A stretch of 64,000 nt of DNA from Betaproteobacteria bacterium. GTDB lineage: Bacteria; Acidobacteriota; Terriglobia; Acidiferrales; UBA7541. The stretch covers positions 1 through 64,000 of the forward strand of contig CAJCHZ010000019.1 in the NCBI GenBank assembly GCA_903970165.1, written 5' to 3'. The notes under the pieces were generated by a model, which worked only from the letters and a program-made list of their open reading frames with translations, did no database searches and was not told the DNA's origin. Positions 1,910 to 9,618 of this stretch are shown here, in pieces (position 1 is the stretch's first letter; each line of letters begins with the position of its first letter). The translations under genes and the position numbers were made by a program.

Positions 1910-1980
1910 CAAGCCGAAATACTAACGTGGCCCCCGTCACTCCCCGCGGTTCCAGGGTCGCTCTACCGTTCTAAGAGGTA

Positions 1981-2000
1981 ATGGCGAAGCCTTGTCCGTG
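1981..2000 (+). promoter_or_regulatory. Conserved pre-start block, copy 1
   Basis: The block ATGGCGAAGCCTTGTCC stands directly before a GTG start codon (1998). The same block, with four transitions, stands directly before the ATG of the second NusG-like gene at 4921. Similarity stops at the start codon on one side and at the ATGG on the other. It may be a translation-initiation or antitermination (ops-like) element. Read from its own ATG it would encode MAKPCP, out of frame with the regulator. Confidence 0.45.
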
Positions 2001-2639
2001 CACTCAACTTTATCAGAGACTCCAACCAATACGCCAAGCGAACTTGGCTCGCAGCGGTGGTTTGCCGCTCACACTCGCTCCTGCCAGGAAAAACGCGTGG
2101 CACAACATCTTTCCGCGCGGGACATAGAGTTCTTTCTGCCCGTTTTTCGCAAAGTGGAGCGCTGGAAGAACGGTTTACGTGTGCCCATCGAAAGGCCGCT
2201 GTTCCCGGGCTATGTCTTTGTGAAGGTACAGCGCAACGAAAGAGTGCGAGTGCTCGAATTGCCTGGTGTGCATTCTATTGTCGGGGCAGGCCGTGAACCA
2301 ACCGCGCTGCCAAGCCAGGAAATTGAAGCTTTGCGCCGGGGAATCCATTCACTCAATGTGGAGCCGCACGCATATCTGAGTGTCGGGGACAGAGCCAAGA
2401 TTCAGAATGGCCCGCTGCAAGGAATGACGGGAATCGTTGTTCGCAAACAAAACGGTTCCCGGCTTGTGCTCAGCCTGGAGCTGATCATGAGAAGTGTGTC
2501 CGTTGAAGTGAATCAAATCGATTTGGAGCCGGTAGCGCCTTCGTCCAATGGTTTGCTTTCCGGGGTAGATGCAACTCAGGGAGGGCCACTGGAAATTCCC
2601 CCAAGCCTCTCCGAAAATTGTTCATGCGAGCCGTTTTGA
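1998..2639 (+). CDS. NusG-like transcription antitermination factor (RfaH/UpxY type), copy 1
   Basis: A specialised NusG paralogue of about 213 residues. The N-terminal NGN domain is recognisable from QRWFAAHTRSCQEKRVAQHL and from RPLFPGYVFVKV. A KOW-type C-terminal domain follows, with YLSVGDRAKIQNGPLQGMTG. Proteins of this family travel with RNA polymerase and suppress premature termination in long polysaccharide operons (RfaH in enterobacteria, UpxY in Bacteroides). Its place as first gene of a 17 kb EPS locus fits that role. I chose GTG 1998 because it aligns with the ATG of the second paralogue at the end of a shared upstream block; TTG 1992 is the alternative. The tail of about 35 residues after the KOW domain is low complexity. 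A second paralogue lies 2.3 kb downstream. Confidence 0.85.
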   Translation: MHSTLSETPTNTPSELGSQRWFAAHTRSCQEKRVAQHLSARDIEFFLPVFRKVERWKNGLRVPIERPLFPGYVFVKVQRNERVRVLELPGVHSIVGAGREPTALPSQEIEALRRGIHSLNVEPHAYLSVGDRAKIQNGPLQGMTGIVVRKQNGSRLVLSLELIMRSVSVEVNQIDLEPVAPSSNGLLSGVDATQGGPLEIPPSLSENCSCEPF

Positions 2640-2670
2640 TGCCCGGGATATTCAAAGTCGGTAAGATGCG

Positions 2671-4062
2671 ATGATCTTGAGTTTCTATAATTTAAGAGAG
2701 CAGCCCTTCGGAGTGACGCCGGATCCGCGGTATTTGTACCTCAGTCCAACTCACCGCGAAGCGCTGGCTTCTGTGCGCTATGGGTTCAACGCGGACCGGG
2801 GATTCACGGCTCTCATTGCGAAACCGGGAATGGGCAAGACGACGTTGTTGTTTGATTTTCTTGGGGGCTTGCAAAGCCATGCGAAGACAGTGTTCCTGTT
2901 TCAATGGCAGTCCTCCCCCCAGGAACTGCTGCGCAATCTGCTGTTTGATCTGGGGATCGAAGATGACGGCAGCGACATGGTGCGCATGCATCGAACGCTC
3001 AACGAATTGCTTCTGAAGGAACATAAAGAGGGAAGGCGTTTGGTGGTTGTAGTGGACGAAGCGCAGAACCTGGACGACTCGGTTTTAGAGATGCTCCGGA
3101 TGCTTTCTAATTTCGAAACGAGCCGGGAAAAACTGATGCACCTGATTCTTGCCGGACAGCCGCAATTGGCTGACAAGCTCGCGAGCCCGAGGCTGACGCA
3201 GCTGCGGCAACGAATTTCGATCTTTGCACGGTTGAAACCCTTGAATCCGGCAGAGATCAAACTCTACATCGATCACAGGCTGAGTGTGGCGGGCTACGAC
3301 CTATCGATGCCGCTCTTTACGGAACGAGCTCAAGCGCTTATTGCAAACGAGACAGCTGGAATTCCGCGGCAGATAAATAATGTGTGTTTCAATGCACTTT
3401 CGCTGGGATGTGCGAACAAACAGAGGACCATCGATGCGGACGTGATCCACGAAGTGCTGGATGACTTGGATTTGGGCCCTGTGTGTTCCGAAGGCGCAAT
3501 GCCGAGCAGGTTGCCGGAGCCTAAGGTTGCAGCAACTAAACTTCTGGCGCCGACACTTCCGGCAGCTGCGCGTGCGATTCGTTCGAGGGTGCCTGTAGAT
3601 CTCTTAAAATGGTCGCTGTGGGCCGCGGTGGCCGTGACCCTGTTGGCGCTGATAACTTGGCCTTTGGCTAGAAAGAATCCGCAAGTGGCAGGCGCTAGCG
3701 CCGTAGTTTCACAACCGCACAATACGGAAACAGCCCCTTCATCGGAGTTCACGCCCACAAAAAGCGAGACAGGCCAGGGAGCTTCCCCGGATGCGGCTAC
3801 CACGCCCCCGATGCCGGAATACAGGATTATTCGCTCGGTTCCCGGGGATACACTCTATGAAATCTGTCTGAAGGAATTTGGTAAGTATGACGCAGGGATT
3901 CTGGCAAAAATGCGTGAAGAGAATCCTTGGTTGACGAATCCTGCTCAAATTCCGTCCGGGAAGGAAATTCGGATTCCAAGCCAGGAAAGCATTACACAAG
4001 CAATCCACGGGAGCGACGATCGAGTTCGTGACGCATATGATGTGGAATCGGAGAAACCATGA
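2671..4062 (+). CDS. ExeA/GspA-like AAA ATPase with membrane anchor and LysM-like tail (EPS-associated)
   Basis: A 463-residue protein. Residues 1-270 form an ExeA-type AAA ATPase: Walker A KPGMGKTT at about 51-58, Walker B VVVVDEAQ at about 125-132, and an arginine-rich sensor region near RLTQLRQRI. A single membrane segment follows at about 312-333. After a Thr/Pro/Ser-rich linker, residues 386-438 resemble a LysM-like module (VPGDTLYEICLKEFG ending NPAQIPSGKEIRIPS). The ATPase side should be cytoplasmic and the LysM-like end periplasmic, where it could touch peptidoglycan. Homologues occur in EPS loci of XrtA-type bacteria, but no exosortase is seen here. The start is ATG 2671. The stop overlaps the next start by ATGA, so the two are translationally coupled. 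The role is probably energising or positioning the export complex, an inference from context. Confidence 0.82.
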   Translation: MILSFYNLREQPFGVTPDPRYLYLSPTHREALASVRYGFNADRGFTALIAKPGMGKTTLLFDFLGGLQSHAKTVFLFQWQSSPQELLRNLLFDLGIEDDGSDMVRMHRTLNELLLKEHKEGRRLVVVVDEAQNLDDSVLEMLRMLSNFETSREKLMHLILAGQPQLADKLASPRLTQLRQRISIFARLKPLNPAEIKLYIDHRLSVAGYDLSMPLFTERAQALIANETAGIPRQINNVCFNALSLGCANKQRTIDADVIHEVLDDLDLGPVCSEGAMPSRLPEPKVAATKLLAPTLPAAARAIRSRVPVDLLKWSLWAAVAVTLLALITWPLARKNPQVAGASAVVSQPHNTETAPSSEFTPTKSETGQGASPDAATTPPMPEYRIIRSVPGDTLYEICLKEFGKYDAGILAKMREENPWLTNPAQIPSGKEIRIPSQESITQAIHGSDDRVRDAYDVESEKP

Positions 4063-4835
4063 GCAAGAACTTTGAGCTATTGCAACAGGCAGGGATAAAT
4101 CTCGATACACCCCCTGTTGTACCGCCGAGGGTTGACTTTCCGCCGTCGGACGCCAAGACGAAGAATGGAAATGGCAACGGTAACGGAGTTCCTGTCCATT
4201 CGAACGACGAGGCCGCTCAAGAAGAGACATTCAAGCTAGTGCAGAACATTTTTCTATTAAGGGGGGACGCATCTCCTCGCATTGTGGTTTTCGCGGGGAT
4301 TGATTCCGGAAACGGATGCAGCGCCATTTGTGCACAGGCTGCAAGCATGCTGGCGAAACAGAAGCTGGGAACCGTGTGCCTGGTTGATGCCAACTTAAGA
4401 ACCCCATCCCTGCCTGAGTACTTTGGTGTCAGCAACCATTTCGGTCTCACCGACTCCTTGTCCAAGCCTGGTGCTATTAGGGAGTTCACGAAAGTAATTG
4501 GTCCCGAGAATTTATCTCTGCTTTCGTGCGGAGGACTGGCGACCGAATCGCTGCGTCTCTTGAATGCAGAGGCAATGAAGACGAGGATCGCAGAACTGCG
4601 AAAAGACTTTGACTATGTGCTCGTCGATGCCCCGCCTTTGAACACGTACGCTGATGGCGTCACGATAGCGCGGCTGGCGGATGGGATCGTCCTCGTTTTG
4701 GAAGCCAATGCCACGCGACGTGAAGCGGCCAGCAAGGTGACGGAGAATTTACGCGCGGCGCAGGTAAAGATTTTGGGTGCCGTGCTTAACAAGCGCACGT
4801 ATCCAATTCCAGAATCTCTGTATCACCGGCTATAG
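4059..4835 (+). CDS. CpsD/BY-kinase-like P-loop protein with altered Walker A
   Basis: A 258-residue protein of the CpsD/CapB/ParA-like fold. Walker A' VCLVDANLRTPS (about 107-118) and Walker B DYVLVDAPP (about 185-193) are typical of bacterial tyrosine autokinases. The Walker A loop, however, reads DSGNGCSA (82-89): the invariant lysine is replaced by Cys87. The C-terminus also lacks a tyrosine cluster, with only Tyr248 and Tyr255 near the end. Family members normally pair with a Wzz-type activator and control chain length by cycling phosphorylation; the Wzz-like partner is encoded at 6405. With this P-loop the protein may bind nucleotide weakly or act as a non-kinase regulator. The first 60 residues are a low-complexity linker rich in Asn and Gly. 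Its start overlaps the ATPase gene by ATGA. Confidence 0.82.
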   Translation: MSKNFELLQQAGINLDTPPVVPPRVDFPPSDAKTKNGNGNGNGVPVHSNDEAAQEETFKLVQNIFLLRGDASPRIVVFAGIDSGNGCSAICAQAASMLAKQKLGTVCLVDANLRTPSLPEYFGVSNHFGLTDSLSKPGAIREFTKVIGPENLSLLSCGGLATESLRLLNAEAMKTRIAELRKDFDYVLVDAPPLNTYADGVTIARLADGIVLVLEANATRREAASKVTENLRAAQVKILGAVLNKRTYPIPESLYHRL

Positions 4836-4903
4836 AGGTAGGGGATAGCAGTCCCGCCTCAGAAGCGGGTTTCCCCAGTACTTTACACCTGTTGTGACTC
4901 AGT

Positions 4904-4923
4904 ATGGCGGAGCCCTGCCCATG
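4904..4923 (+). promoter_or_regulatory. Conserved pre-start block, copy 2
   Basis: ATGGCGGAGCCCTGCCC immediately precedes ATG 4921. It matches the block at 1981-1997 at 13 of 17 positions in ungapped alignment, and all differences are transitions. Here it includes GGAG eight bases before the start, a plausible ribosome-binding site. Confidence 0.45.
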
Positions 4924-5490
4924 GGTAGTCTTCAGAGAATTACAAGCGGATTGCTGCCAGCCCATCCGGAAGTCTCGCTGGACGCGTTGTCGTGGTTCGC
5001 GGTCCGGACACGGCCACGGTTTGAAATGAGGATTAGTATCCAGCTTCAGGAGAAGGGCATCAAGACGTTTTTGCCGCTGCACTCCGCCACGCATCGGTGG
5101 AGCGACCGGCAGCGAATCGTTGAGTTGCCACTCTTTCCAGGCTATGTGTTTGTACAAACCCGCTCCAGTGTGAACTCCCGGATACCGGTGCTAAGGACAA
5201 ATGGAGTGCTCCACTTTGTTGGAGACCGAGGAATCGGTACGCCAATTCCAGATAGCGAGATAGAAGTCTTGCAAGCGGTGCTTGATCTTAAGGTCCCGTT
5301 CGAACCTCATCCCTATCTTGAGATTGGCCAGCGGGTTCGAATTTGCGGTGGGTGCCTCGAAGGCGTCACAGGTACTCTCGCAGCCGTCAACGGAAATCAT
5401 AGCGTCGTCGTTTCCGTGAATCTGATTCAAAGATCTATCGCGATGCGAATCGAGGGATACCAGGTTGAGGCGATAGGAGTAACTGCTTGA
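4921..5490 (+). CDS. NusG-like transcription antitermination factor, copy 2
   Basis: A second NGN-KOW protein, about 189 residues from ATG 4921 (GTG 4894 is an in-frame alternative). The NGN domain is recognised from LSWFAVRTRPRFEMRISIQL and LPLFPGYVFVQTRS. The KOW region shows YLEIGQRVRICGGCLEGVTGTL. It is clearly a paralogue of the protein at 1998, but diverged, with no long nucleotide identity apart from the block before the start codon. It sits between the CpsD-like gene and the Wza/Wzz-like genes, so it may act on the second half of the locus or compete with the first copy. In Bacteroides, multiple UpxY proteins act on their own operons; whether that logic applies here is inference. A strong ribosome-binding site of the next gene follows 10 bases after its stop. 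Confidence 0.83.
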   Translation: MGSLQRITSGLLPAHPEVSLDALSWFAVRTRPRFEMRISIQLQEKGIKTFLPLHSATHRWSDRQRIVELPLFPGYVFVQTRSSVNSRIPVLRTNGVLHFVGDRGIGTPIPDSEIEVLQAVLDLKVPFEPHPYLEIGQRVRICGGCLEGVTGTLAAVNGNHSVVVSVNLIQRSIAMRIEGYQVEAIGVTA

Positions 5491-5512: not shown

Positions 5513-6283
5513 ATGAAGGGATTTGGAGCATTTTCGATACGACTGATGTTTCTCGCACTGAGCATGACGGCTACCGTCATTGGGCAGACGAACCCATCAG
5601 GGTCAAGCCTTGCACCGGAAGCGATACATGTCGCGCAGCAAAGCGATAACGCACCGGCAGACTCAGACCGGCCTAAGCCCCAACAACGGAATCCGCGCTA
5701 TAAGCTTCAGCCAGATGACGGGTTAGTGATCTCATTTCCTTTGTCTCCCGAATTCGACCAACCGTCTCACTGCGTGCAAACGACGAACTGCTCAGTTCAA
5801 GTGCAGCCGGACGGATACATCGACGTGGAAGGGGCGGGGAGCGTATACGTTCAGGGATTGACTGTGCCGGAGGTTGTTGAAGCTCTGAAGAAGGCCTATG
5901 CGGGCGTACTTCATGACCCAATTATCCACGTCGATTTGGTCGAGTTTCAGCGGCCATTCTTCCTCGTCTCTGGCCAGGTTGGTAAGCCCGGGCAGTACGA
6001 CTTGCGCCATGACACCACGGTCTCGGAAGCAATTGCGATTGCAGGCGGATTCGCGCCTACGGCGAAAACGCAAGTTTTTCTCTATCGCCGTGTTTCCGAC
6101 AGTACGGCAGAGGTCAAGGAACTAAAGCTCAAAGATATTCTGCACGGCAAGAATGTCAATGAGGATGTCCACTTGCGGCCCGGCGACATGATTTTTGTCC
6201 CCGAGAAGGCGATAACCAAATTCCGGAAGTATGTTCCGTATAGTGTAGGATTCGGTGCTTACCCGTCGATACCTACTTTGTGA
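5513..6283 (+). CDS. Polysaccharide export protein (Wza-like, Poly_export + SLBB)
   Basis: A 256-residue secreted protein, preceded by AAAGGAGG at good spacing. The signal peptide covers about 1-24 (hydrophobic core LMFLALSMTATVIG, ending at GQ). There is no lipobox, so it is not an obvious lipoprotein like E. coli Wza. The Poly_export domain starts with YKLQPDDGLVISF (about 62-75), contains VQPDGYIDVEGAG, and continues to DPIIHVDLVE. One SLBB domain follows (FLVSGQVGKPGQYDLR, SEAIAIAGGF), ending with HLRPGDMIFVPEK. The protein should form or contribute to the outer-membrane exit channel for the polymer and contact the Wzz-like protein encoded next. It is shorter than E. coli Wza (about 380 residues) and has one clear SLBB domain rather than two. 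Confidence 0.88.
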   Translation: MKGFGAFSIRLMFLALSMTATVIGQTNPSGSSLAPEAIHVAQQSDNAPADSDRPKPQQRNPRYKLQPDDGLVISFPLSPEFDQPSHCVQTTNCSVQVQPDGYIDVEGAGSVYVQGLTVPEVVEALKKAYAGVLHDPIIHVDLVEFQRPFFLVSGQVGKPGQYDLRHDTTVSEAIAIAGGFAPTAKTQVFLYRRVSDSTAEVKELKLKDILHGKNVNEDVHLRPGDMIFVPEKAITKFRKYVPYSVGFGAYPSIPTL

Positions 6284-6404
6284 CTCGAGATCTAGCCAAC
6301 TGGAGTCGCATAAGTCCGATGGCTACACATCAGAGTCGGTGACCAGTTTGAGGAAGATGGATTGAGTTCTCGCAAGGAAAGATAAAACTTTAGAAGGATT
6401 GAAT

Positions 6405-7913
6405 ATGGATTATTCGAAGAAGAAAGCGTCTTTGGAAGATACATTCCCGCAGTTCACTCTTCGGGACATCCTTATGCCGCTGTTCCGTCACCGGCGGCTC
6501 GTGCTGGTTACTTTTTGCGCTGTATTTGTCTGCGCTAGCCTTGTCGCGTGGATATGGGCCGCACAATACTACGTGGCCAAGATGCAGATCGTCGTCGAAC
6601 AAGATCGGTCCGACCCCGCCATTACGACAGCCCAGAGTGCCGCAATGACAAACACGAAATTGCTAACGACCGATCAGATTAGTTCAGAGGTAGCGCTTCT
6701 CCAGGGGCAAGACATGTTTCTCTCCGTGGCCGCAAAGTGCGGTTTGGTGAGCGATGACTGGTCTCCTCTGGACGTTTTCCTGCCATCCGATCCTGCTCGG
6801 CGAAAGGCCGCAAAGCTGGAACTCGCGGCTATTCATTTTGGGAAGAAGTTGAAGGTCGAGGTCAACAAGGATTCAGACGTCATTGATGTCAAGTATGGAA
6901 GGATGGGCGAACCGGAGACGCCGGCCTGCGCTCTTCAAACATTAAGTAAGCTTTATTTGGAAAAGCATCTCCAATTGCGCCGCCCACCCGGTTCAACCGA
7001 TTTTTTCGAACAAGAGACGCAGAAGTATAAAGAAGCACTTGCATCTGCAGAGATGCGTTTGACGGACTTTAGCCGTCAAGCTGGGCTTGCTGCGCCTGAT
7101 GAACTGAGGACAGATCTGTCCCATCAAATAGCCGAGTCCGAGGGTACTGCCCTTCAAGCGAAGGCCGCGATAGTTGCTGATAAGGAACGGATCGTAAACG
7201 TCGAAAAACAATTGCAGCAGACACCCACGAGATCGCTCACCCAGCAATCCTCTCTTTCAGCGAATCTGTTATTGGAACAGCTGGGAAGTGCCCTTCTCGC
7301 CGCCGAGAACAAGCGGACTCAATTGCTGCTGAAATACGAACCAAGCTATCCCCTGGTCCGGGAGATTGACGAGGAAATTGCCCAAACAAAACACGATATC
7401 GCGGAGGCCGAGCAAGCGAAGTATGTCAACGACACGACCGATCGTGATCCCGCTTATGAATTGCTGAGGGAGGATCTTCTTCGAACGCGGGCTGATCTGG
7501 CTACTCAGCAGGCCACAGCCGCTGCTCTCGACAAGGGTATCCGCGACTTGAAAATGCAGATGGTGAGTTTAGATTCGAACGCGGTGGAGCAAGGGGCTCT
7601 ACTTCGCGAAGCAAAAGCAGATGAAGCAAACTATTTACTGTATCTGGGTAAACGCGAGCAACAACGGGCTTCTGACGCCCTGGACCAAAAGAGAATTGCG
7701 GATGTAGCTGTTGCCGTTCCAGCTGCAATTCCGGCGGTCCCCGCACACAGCCCGCTCTTGATTATGTTCCTCGGATTTATTTGCGCAATTTTTATGGCAA
7801 TTGCAGCTGGATTTACTGCAGAGCATCTCGACCCTTCTTTCCGGACGCCAGAGGAAGTCGTAGGAACTCTGCATATTCCTGTGCTTGCCGCGGTATCGAG
7901 GCGCGCCGCCTGA
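6405..7913 (+). CDS. Wzz/PCP-type polysaccharide co-polymerase (chain-length determinant)
   Basis: About 502 residues from ATG 6405, which has AGAAGGA six bases upstream; TTG 6399 is unlikely. The protein has the PCP layout: a cytoplasmic N-terminus, a first membrane segment at about 30-52 (HRRLVLVTFCAVFVCASLVAWIW), a long periplasmic part rich in coiled coil (about 190-420), and a second membrane segment near the C-terminus (LLIMFLGFICAIFMAIAAGF). The short cytoplasmic tail ends TPEEVVGTLHIPVLAAVSRR. No kinase domain is fused, so the CpsD-like protein at 4059 is the likely partner. PCP proteins set polymer length by interacting with Wzy and the Wza channel, both encoded in this locus. A 265-base gap follows, so a new transcription unit may begin at the glycosyltransferase genes. 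Confidence 0.88.
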   Translation: MDYSKKKASLEDTFPQFTLRDILMPLFRHRRLVLVTFCAVFVCASLVAWIWAAQYYVAKMQIVVEQDRSDPAITTAQSAAMTNTKLLTTDQISSEVALLQGQDMFLSVAAKCGLVSDDWSPLDVFLPSDPARRKAAKLELAAIHFGKKLKVEVNKDSDVIDVKYGRMGEPETPACALQTLSKLYLEKHLQLRRPPGSTDFFEQETQKYKEALASAEMRLTDFSRQAGLAAPDELRTDLSHQIAESEGTALQAKAAIVADKERIVNVEKQLQQTPTRSLTQQSSLSANLLLEQLGSALLAAENKRTQLLLKYEPSYPLVREIDEEIAQTKHDIAEAEQAKYVNDTTDRDPAYELLREDLLRTRADLATQQATAAALDKGIRDLKMQMVSLDSNAVEQGALLREAKADEANYLLYLGKREQQRASDALDQKRIADVAVAVPAAIPAVPAHSPLLIMFLGFICAIFMAIAAGFTAEHLDPSFRTPEEVVGTLHIPVLAAVSRRAA

Positions 7914-7979
7914 GCCTATGTTTTTGATGCCGCGAAATGTTCCGTCAAAACCGTAACAAGAAGCGCGGCCTCTACGATG

Positions 7980-8009
7980 AGTGATTGGAGCAGGAGTGAT
8001 TAGAGCAGG
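7980..8009 (+). repeat. 15-bp tandem duplication
   Basis: AGTGATTGGAGCAGG is followed directly by AGTGATTAGAGCAGG (14 of 15 identical) in the 265-base gap between the Wzz-like gene and the sugar-phosphate transferase gene. The rest of that gap shows no clear promoter or terminator. Confidence 0.7.
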
Positions 8010-8178
8010 AATCCGCAACCTCTATCTATTCTGATATCCATTCTGAAAGACTCGGTCCCGGCGATTCGTCTAGCCTTCTCAGTAAGAAACGTAATCAGGA
8101 TCGGCGGATCAATTTGCTCCAACCTTTGCGGTTTGCCGGTCGCTCCATTCAATTACCTGCAGCTTTAGATAAACTCCG

Positions 8179-9618
8179 ATGAATGAAACGAAACGATTGC
8201 TTTGGCTCAATTCGTTGAAAATGTTTGATATAGCATCCTTGATCGTCGCATTTGTTTCCGCAACCATTCTGTCTGCAGTTCGTGCAGGAAACCCGTCGAT
8301 CGTCGAAGTGTTTTCGGTGAAAGTGAGACTCTGGAATTTTGTCATCTTTGTAGCCCTGCTCGCTTTCTGGCACCTTGTGTTCAAAATGTGCGGGTTGTAT
8401 CGCTCCAGGCGCCTTTCGACGACGCAGGTCGAGACCATTGATACGCTGAAAGCAGCCGCGATCGCTACCCTTTCCTTGGTGGTGGCTGCCAGGATTTTGA
8501 ACCTCAGAATGTTCACTCCGACCTTTCTAATTCTGTTCTGGGCGTTCAGTGCGTCAATCCTGGTTATTGGCCGGCTGGTGGGCCGATTTGTTCTTTCGCA
8601 CTTACGGCGGCAGGGCCGCAACCTGCACTTCATCCTGATTCTAGGCACGAATGCGCGGGCCATCGAATTTGCGAGGAAGCTTGAGGCAAGGCCAGAATTG
8701 GGCTATCAGATTGTCGGGTTCGTCGATGATCCATGGGCTGGCACCGACGAGTTTTCCCGCAGCGGTTATCGTCTCTGCTGCGATTTTGAAAATCTACCTC
8801 GTTTCCTCCGAGACAATGTCGTGGATGAAGTGGGCTTCTTCTTGCCTCTGCAGTCTTTTTACGAGTTTACGTCCCGAGTCGCCACGCTTTTTGAGCAACA
8901 TGGCACCATCATGAGATTTGATTCGGACATGTTCAATTTGAAGTCTGCCCGGCCACGTATCGACGTTTTTGATGGAGAAGCCCATATCACTGCTTATTCC
9001 GGAAGGTTCGAGGGCTTGGCTGTTCATGTGAAGCGGCTAATCGATCTGACGGGCTCGTTCGTCCTGCTGACTCTTCTAACCCCGCTATTTCTGCTGGTTG
9101 CCATTCTTATAAAAGCCACCTCTACGGGCCCCCTAATGTTTTCGCAGAAACGAGTTGGGCTCAATAAACGACAATTTGTCATGTACAAATTCCGCACCAT
9201 GGTTTCTGACGCGGAGCAATTACAGAGTAATTTGCTCCATCTGAATGAAATGACCGGGCCCGTCTTCAAGATAAAGAACGATCCCAGGGTGACCAGAGTT
9301 GGCAGATTTTTGAGAAAGACAAGCATCGACGAACTACCGCAACTCTTCAATGTACTAATGGGAGATATGAGCCTGGTGGGACCACGGGCCATGTCTGTAC
9401 GAGACTATCAATTCTTTAGTGAAGATTGGCAGAGGCGCCGGTTTAGCGTCCGTCCCGGAATTACCTGCTTGTGGCAGGTAAACGGCCGAAACTCCATTCC
9501 CTTCGAGCAGTGGATGGAGTTGGATATGCAGTATATCGACGGGTGGTCGCTTTGGCTTGACCTGAAAATATTGGCGCAAACCATACCCGCCGTACTGAAA
9601 GGCTCGGGAGCGGCTTAA
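8179..9618 (+). CDS. Polyprenyl-phosphate sugar-1-phosphate transferase (WbaP/EpsB-like initiating enzyme)
   Basis: A 479-residue membrane protein that starts the repeat unit by moving a sugar 1-phosphate onto undecaprenyl phosphate. The N-terminal third has four or five membrane helices. A Rossmann-like CoA-binding-type domain follows (FILILGTNARAIEFARKLEA, GYQIVGFVDD). After a further membrane hairpin (about 285-310) comes the catalytic bacterial sugar transferase domain, with KFRTMVSDAEQ, DPRVTRVGRFLRKTSIDELP, NVLMGDMSLVGPR and RPGITCLWQVNGRN, ending in a DLKILAQTIPAVL helix. All hallmarks of the family are present, including the Asp-Glu catalytic pair in SIDELPQ. The sugar (often glucose or galactose) cannot be told from sequence. 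It probably heads a second transcription unit carrying transferases, flippase and polymerase. Confidence 0.9.
   Translation: MNETKRLLWLNSLKMFDIASLIVAFVSATILSAVRAGNPSIVEVFSVKVRLWNFVIFVALLAFWHLVFKMCGLYRSRRLSTTQVETIDTLKAAAIATLSLVVAARILNLRMFTPTFLILFWAFSASILVIGRLVGRFVLSHLRRQGRNLHFILILGTNARAIEFARKLEARPELGYQIVGFVDDPWAGTDEFSRSGYRLCCDFENLPRFLRDNVVDEVGFFLPLQSFYEFTSRVATLFEQHGTIMRFDSDMFNLKSARPRIDVFDGEAHITAYSGRFEGLAVHVKRLIDLTGSFVLLTLLTPLFLLVAILIKATSTGPLMFSQKRVGLNKRQFVMYKFRTMVSDAEQLQSNLLHLNEMTGPVFKIKNDPRVTRVGRFLRKTSIDELPQLFNVLMGDMSLVGPRAMSVRDYQFFSEDWQRRRFSVRPGITCLWQVNGRNSIPFEQWMELDMQYIDGWSLWLDLKILAQTIPAVLKGSGAA

Follow-up and report, generated by a model that had tools for sequence, protein, structure and literature searches.

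In the JUMPStart element, a 39-bp leader element before polysaccharide genes, ops is contained within a longer conserved stretch, and UpxY of Bacteroides reportedly recognises the paused RNA polymerase through the non-template DNA together with the upstream duplex. The ops hairpin of E. coli contains the pairs C3:G8 and G4:A7 and is recognised by RfaH (PMC5995543, PMC6391919). The UpxY gene of Bacteroides heads its own polysaccharide operon and its product acts in the 5' leader (PMC7819879), contacting the upstream DNA duplex according to one passage of PMC12691694, while LoaP reads a UNCG RNA hairpin, dfn (PMC12691694). In a 2019 review, the recruitment of specialised NusG proteins was described as known for RfaH alone (PMC6391919), and in 2020 the recruitment of operon-encoded NusG paralogues was called unknown (PMC7593976); LoaP and Bacteroides UpxY have been studied since these statements.

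Among the known systems, UpxY of Bacteroides (Chatzidaki-Livanis 2009; Saba et al. 2024, Nat Commun 15:10862) is, by description, the nearest relative. With the locus analysed here it shares the NCBIfam subfamily NF033644 and a gene heading its own polysaccharide operon; the phyla differ. The window is the whole analysed stretch of 64,000 nucleotides from contig CAJCHZ010000019.1 (assembly GCA_903970165.1), and its relevant genes are the following.

1998..2639, + strand: upxY1, UpxY-family NusG paralogue (NF033644, 110.4 bits against a cut-off of 100)
2671..4062, + strand: XrtA/PEP-CTERM-type ATPase of an exopolysaccharide operon (TIGR03015, 5e-68, under its cut-off; AAA_22)
4059..4835, + strand: tyrosine-kinase-like (CpsD/Wzc C-domain) P-loop ATPase (TIGR01007, 2.5e-27, under its cut-off)
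4921..5490, + strand: upxY2, UpxY-family NusG paralogue (NF033644, 115.9 bits against a cut-off of 100)
5513-6283, + strand: Wza-like export gene, the first gene 3' of upxY2
6399-7913, + strand: Wzz-like chain length gene
8179-9618, + strand: sugar transferase gene

From the gene order between 1998 and 9618, both upxY genes head polysaccharide genes in an exopolysaccharide cluster, and the genes at 5513..9618 are presumed to be the target operon of the signal described below. The start codon of upxY1 is uncertain (TTG 1992 or GTG 1998). The two window proteins stay below the cut-off of RfaH (TIGR01955; 73.8 and 75 bits against 144.5) and far below that of LoaP (NF033641; 60.5 and 49.3 bits against 125). 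In the AF2 model of the upxY2 product the NGN domain is confident, and the C-domain, alpha-helical and autoinhibitory in RfaH, is of the beta type with low confidence (pLDDT 50-59). A promoter and terminator scan of the window gave nothing above shuffled sequences, promoter scans being weak in this phylum.

Directly before the start codons of the two NusG paralogues, the initial annotation had pointed to a conserved 17-nt block, and it is indeed present: ATGGCGAAGCCTTGTCC occupies 1981-1997 and abuts GTG 1998 (site 1), and ATGGCGGAGCCCTGCCC occupies 4904-4920 and abuts ATG 4921 (site 2). The blocks agree at 14 of 17 positions. Every difference is a transition, as had been said, but there are three of them within the block rather than four, the fourth belonging to the start codon, at its first base. 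The abrupt end of similarity on both sides was likewise borne out, the flanks being unrelated (identity 13/40, 7/18 and 12/45). Allowing up to two mismatches, the 17-mer is approached at 27 places in its own 5.6-Mb draft genome, the two sites included; those inspected (L003, L004 and L006) were rejected as further sites, being located within genes or resembling chance matches.

The DNA upstream of upxY genes was then compared among relatives, in 41 genomes at first and later in 95 genomes of the order. Motif discovery by expectation-maximisation from random seeds, performed on the first 65 leaders, returned the core GGCGGTAGCT with a log-likelihood ratio of 190, compared with 44-53 in shuffles, and alignment of the leaders then revealed two loop forms of this core. 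It was found before 149 of 175 upxY genes, while dinucleotide shuffles gave a mean of 8.9 and a maximum of 15; the antisense strand carried it at 1/175 and coding stretches of equal size at 3/175. Outside the discovery set it was recovered in 95 of 110 loci, and it is missing from 26 of the 175. The core is accompanied by a box on its upstream side, so that the whole element reads TGKRASTC-(4-5 nt)-GGC-loop-GCY-(N)-T; core and box occur together at 136 loci, against 0.7 in the control. In both loop forms the box spans -12 to -5 and is strongly conserved, with little conservation farther upstream. Its sequence varies by UpxY subclade, being for example CTGTAAGTCACAG with QHE proteins and CTGTAAGTGACGG with NHEK proteins. 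In leaders of the NHEK subclade (such as L305, L311 and L326) we also observed GGGTTAGGTCAC...GTGAC just 5' of the core, which is a possible alternative hairpin.

This comparison identifies the block as the core of a bipartite, ops-like element that Terriglobia (Acidobacteriota) and Nitrospirota carry in their upxY leaders; it is real and, as had been proposed from the two window sites, very probably functional. With two sites only, in one genome, and 3-4 differences in 17-18 nt, the likeness could have been due to chance or to a recent duplication of an upxY leader. However, the two proteins share 35% identity and the flanks are unrelated, and since the core recurs in the relatives and in the hold-out loci this doubt is removed; we give such an origin practically no weight. 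The features of the two window sites are listed below.

1970..1982, + strand: upstream box of site 1, TCTAAGAGGTAAT, a divergent TGKRASTC (box score 5/8), core-aligned with the relatives
1983..1994, + strand: core of site 1, GGC-GAA-GCC-T-TG, with a predicted GNA-triloop DNA mini-hairpin at 1983-1991
4893..4905, + strand: upstream box of site 2, TGTGACTCAGTAT, a full TGKRASTC match (box score 8/8)
4906..4917, + strand: core of site 2, GGC-GGA-GCC-C-TG, with a predicted GNA triloop

For the box of site 1, the closest relative, G241:C303, has TCTAAGAGGCGAA. The predicted pause T11 falls at 1993 with the +1 G at 1994 for site 1, and at 4916 with the +1 G at 4917 for site 2. Both sites agree with the pause consensus G-11 G-10 ... 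T-1 G+1 at a spacing of 12 nt.

The two loop forms differ by one nucleotide in loop length. The window sites, which read GGCGAAGCCTTG and GGCGGAGCCCTG, both belong to the triloop form GGC-GRA-GCY-N-T, and the sister form is the tetraloop GGC-GGTA-GC-Y-T, whose first nine letters, GGCGGTAGC, are the E. coli ops core. Its GNNA loop is mostly GGTA, with GATA, GTTA and GTAA being rarer. The first 8 nt of ops, GGCGGTAG, are present in 45 of 55 tetraloop elements (45/146 of all elements), and the full ops consensus GGCGGTAGNNTG in 19 of the 55; two elements are identical to GGCGGTAGCGTG. The window sites are without this canonical core GGCGGTAG and its T6 in a 4-nt loop. One form has T at position 11, the pause position of ops, in 86% of cases and the other in 92%, and the distance from T11 to G1 is equal in both despite the difference in loop length; the search pattern stopped at position 9 or 10, so T11 lay outside it. 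Both forms are carried by 23 of 79 genomes.

DNA mini-hairpins of the types d(GC-GNA-GC) and d(GC-GNNA-GC) have an unusual stability, and by this triloop and tetraloop both suit one small hairpin. In a nearest-neighbour DNA fold site 1 gives a 3-bp triloop hairpin of -1.5 kcal/mol, and the free 17-mer of site 2 gives a different, competing hairpin; the DNA hairpins have small predicted energies, indistinguishable from those of shuffles. The outer stem pair was considered for covariation (G-C, G-T, A-T) and dropped, T being common at the last position anyway.

The reading we favour, with a probability of roughly 0.84, is that the two blocks are cores of ops-type signals within leaders assumed to be transcribed. 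RNA polymerase would pause when the 3' end of the RNA is at T11, and the exposed non-template strand would fold into a mini-hairpin of 2-3 bp, GGC-GRA-GCY in the window and GGC-GGTA-GC in the tetraloop form. This hairpin, and probably the upstream box TGKRASTC too, would be read by the cognate UpxY, which would bind the polymerase and stay on it through the long exopolysaccharide operon, acting by antitermination. Recognition through non-template DNA and upstream duplex, as is said of Bacteroides UpxY, fits the bipartite element. Because each site precedes a UpxY gene, positive autoregulation is likely, in which the first UpxY made would boost transcription of its own operon. The products of upxY1 and upxY2 belong to different subclades, and each gene has its own triloop site, the two genes lying 2.9 kb apart. 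For such a pair in one cluster a relay at the second site is conceivable, as are separate transcripts.

When compared with ops/RfaH (Zuber et al. 2018, PMC5995543), the element has the same GGCG-loop-AGC core in polysaccharide operon leaders and the same G1G2...T11 pause register, the closing pairs G4:A and C3:G are possible, the tetraloop form has the identical GGCGGTAGC, and targets include operons without a regulator gene. It differs in that the window form has a 3-nt loop without the T6 that RfaH flips out, that a conserved upstream box is present and that the regulator gene lies directly downstream. The regulator is UpxY instead of RfaH, and the loop-reading residues of RfaH are not conserved. 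With JUMPStart the likeness is that of a leader element before polysaccharide genes. The initial annotation had also named an ops-like pause or recruitment site as a possible function, and the comparison supports it strongly, through the upxY leaders, the literal ops core in part of the elements, the T at position 11 and the sites before polysaccharide genes other than upxY. The test that this annotation had set, whether the block is missing before orthologous genes of related species, turned out favourably for it. The element offers a specific, predicted place for UpxY to board the polymerase, in two phyla whose members are mostly uncultured bacteria of soil and water, and a literal ops core exists outside Proteobacteria beside a different NusG subfamily. 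It would be less new if Saba et al. 2024 already give the same core for Bacteroides; within our limited literature collection nothing was found on ops or UpxY in Acidobacteria.

An overlapping leader peptide (MAKPCP.../MAEPCP...) had been suggested as well, since the blocks begin with ATG and three of the four differences are synonymous in that frame. The +1 frames were both found open, for 48 codons at site 1 and 41 at site 2. Among the relatives, however, only 29 of 146 elements have ATG where the block begins and the loop forms differ by 1 nt in length, so that a conserved peptide fails. A shared translation-initiation element fails too, because only 5 of 146 elements are followed immediately by a start codon, the adjacency noted originally being peculiar to these genes rather than a trait of the element, and because the distance from element to protein core ranges over 37-203 nt in all three frames. 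The element also precedes unrelated genes, and we regard either translational role as very improbable.

The signal might instead act in the nascent leader RNA, as a hairpin bound by UpxY in the manner of LoaP with dfn, the DNA then being conserved only by way of the RNA. LoaP is a precedent (PMC12691694) and is similar in being a NusG paralogue that works by way of a leader element close to the operon it targets, but it differs from the present case in reading an RNA hairpin and in the low scores of the window proteins against its model. In some leaders a stem can form right next to the core, such as CCUGU-aaguc-ACAGG or GAGUCAC...GUGACUC, and the pair -15:-2 exchanges C-G for T-A. No one stem is kept family-wide, however, the upstream stems conflict with one another, and invariance is confined to the short GGCG-loop-AGC core. 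Most tetraloops read GGTA rather than the RNA-stable GNRA, and the fixed spacing between G1 and T11 suits a pause register. We consider recognition at the RNA level unlikely, though it is the alternative we would take most seriously.

It may also be asked whether a transcription factor binds the element as duplex DNA, or whether the element is a promoter part of the polysaccharide operons. The strongly conserved box TGKRASTC could bind a protein, and some of its forms are palindromic (TGTGACTCACA). Against this stand the strict orientation of the element, with the single antisense occurrence among 175 loci, the literal ops core in tetraloop members and the agreement of loop length with the UpxY clade; in addition, no sigma-70-like promoter overlaps the element in the window, such scans being weak in this phylum. 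A duplex site is accordingly a poor candidate in our estimate, clearly behind the RNA hairpin.

We then consider the ops-type signal in relation to its presumed reader. Mapped onto a tree of 142 UpxY proteins, loop form shows exactly one change (SH-aLRT 98%), whereas shuffled labels require 43.4 changes on average, and a FastTree tree gives the same single change. That loop form tracks the UpxY clade fits cognate recognition, but the protein-DNA match rests on one event, because the form changed only once, and is no proof of it. For the same reason of a single tree event, protein columns separating the loop classes (such as RfaH position 57, C/S against V/L/A/I/F) were rejected as candidate contacts. 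RfaH reads ops with K10, H20, R23, Q24 and R73; of these, H20, R23 and R73 are not conserved in either UpxY clade, and at position 10 most UpxY proteins have a basic residue. We tentatively suggest, at somewhat less than even odds, that loop length (GNA triloop or GNNA tetraloop) would be a specificity code separating two UpxY clades in one cell, with the upstream box as a second layer and with the element governing a small regulon in trans besides the operon of its regulator. The natural pairs of loop form and protein offer a way to test how a NusG paralogue picks its operon.

As for taxonomic range, the Terriglobia include the scaffold-level genome Acidobacteriaceae KBS 89, with the element at 2/2 upxY genes. 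In Nitrospirota it stands at 3/3 upxY genes of Nitrospira RBC069 and at 11 of 30 sampled loci; the recurrence of the triloop there (L367, L369, L370 and L373-L401) suggests either transfer between phyla or an old origin. The upxY leaders of other acidobacterial classes (L337-L365) contain no ops-like core and no convincing shared substitute motif, and the UpxY proteins of these classes may use another signal.

Across the whole of the 95 genomes, TGKGACTNNNNNGGCGNTAGCY matches 35 times and its reversed control once; for TGTRASTNNNNNRGCGRAGCY the counts are 42 and 3. The majority are upxY leaders, with L298 and L119 at degraded or gapped upxY genes, and L309 was rejected as chance. The matches away from upxY precede genes for a Wzm-type ABC2_membrane protein, an Asn_synthase, Bac_transf proteins (2) and epimerases of the CapD or Polysacc_synt_2 type (2), the Pfam assignment covering 5 of these 6 genes. 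Since the element here precedes polysaccharide genes without an adjacent upxY, an RfaH-like recruitment or pause site is favoured. Several of these matches lie right behind a tyrosine-kinase gene, like site 2 of the window. At L322 and L323 (G274:C18, G275:C72) the block is flanked by the kinase gene and a CapD-type gene, at a place matching that of site 2 and upxY2 in the window, and no upxY follows; these cases are the strongest argument against a role linked to the start codon and for an RfaH-like operon signal. At L320 (G271:C65:1022-1940) the element and upxY are separated by an ORF encoding a putative secreted protein, the element being upstream of both genes.
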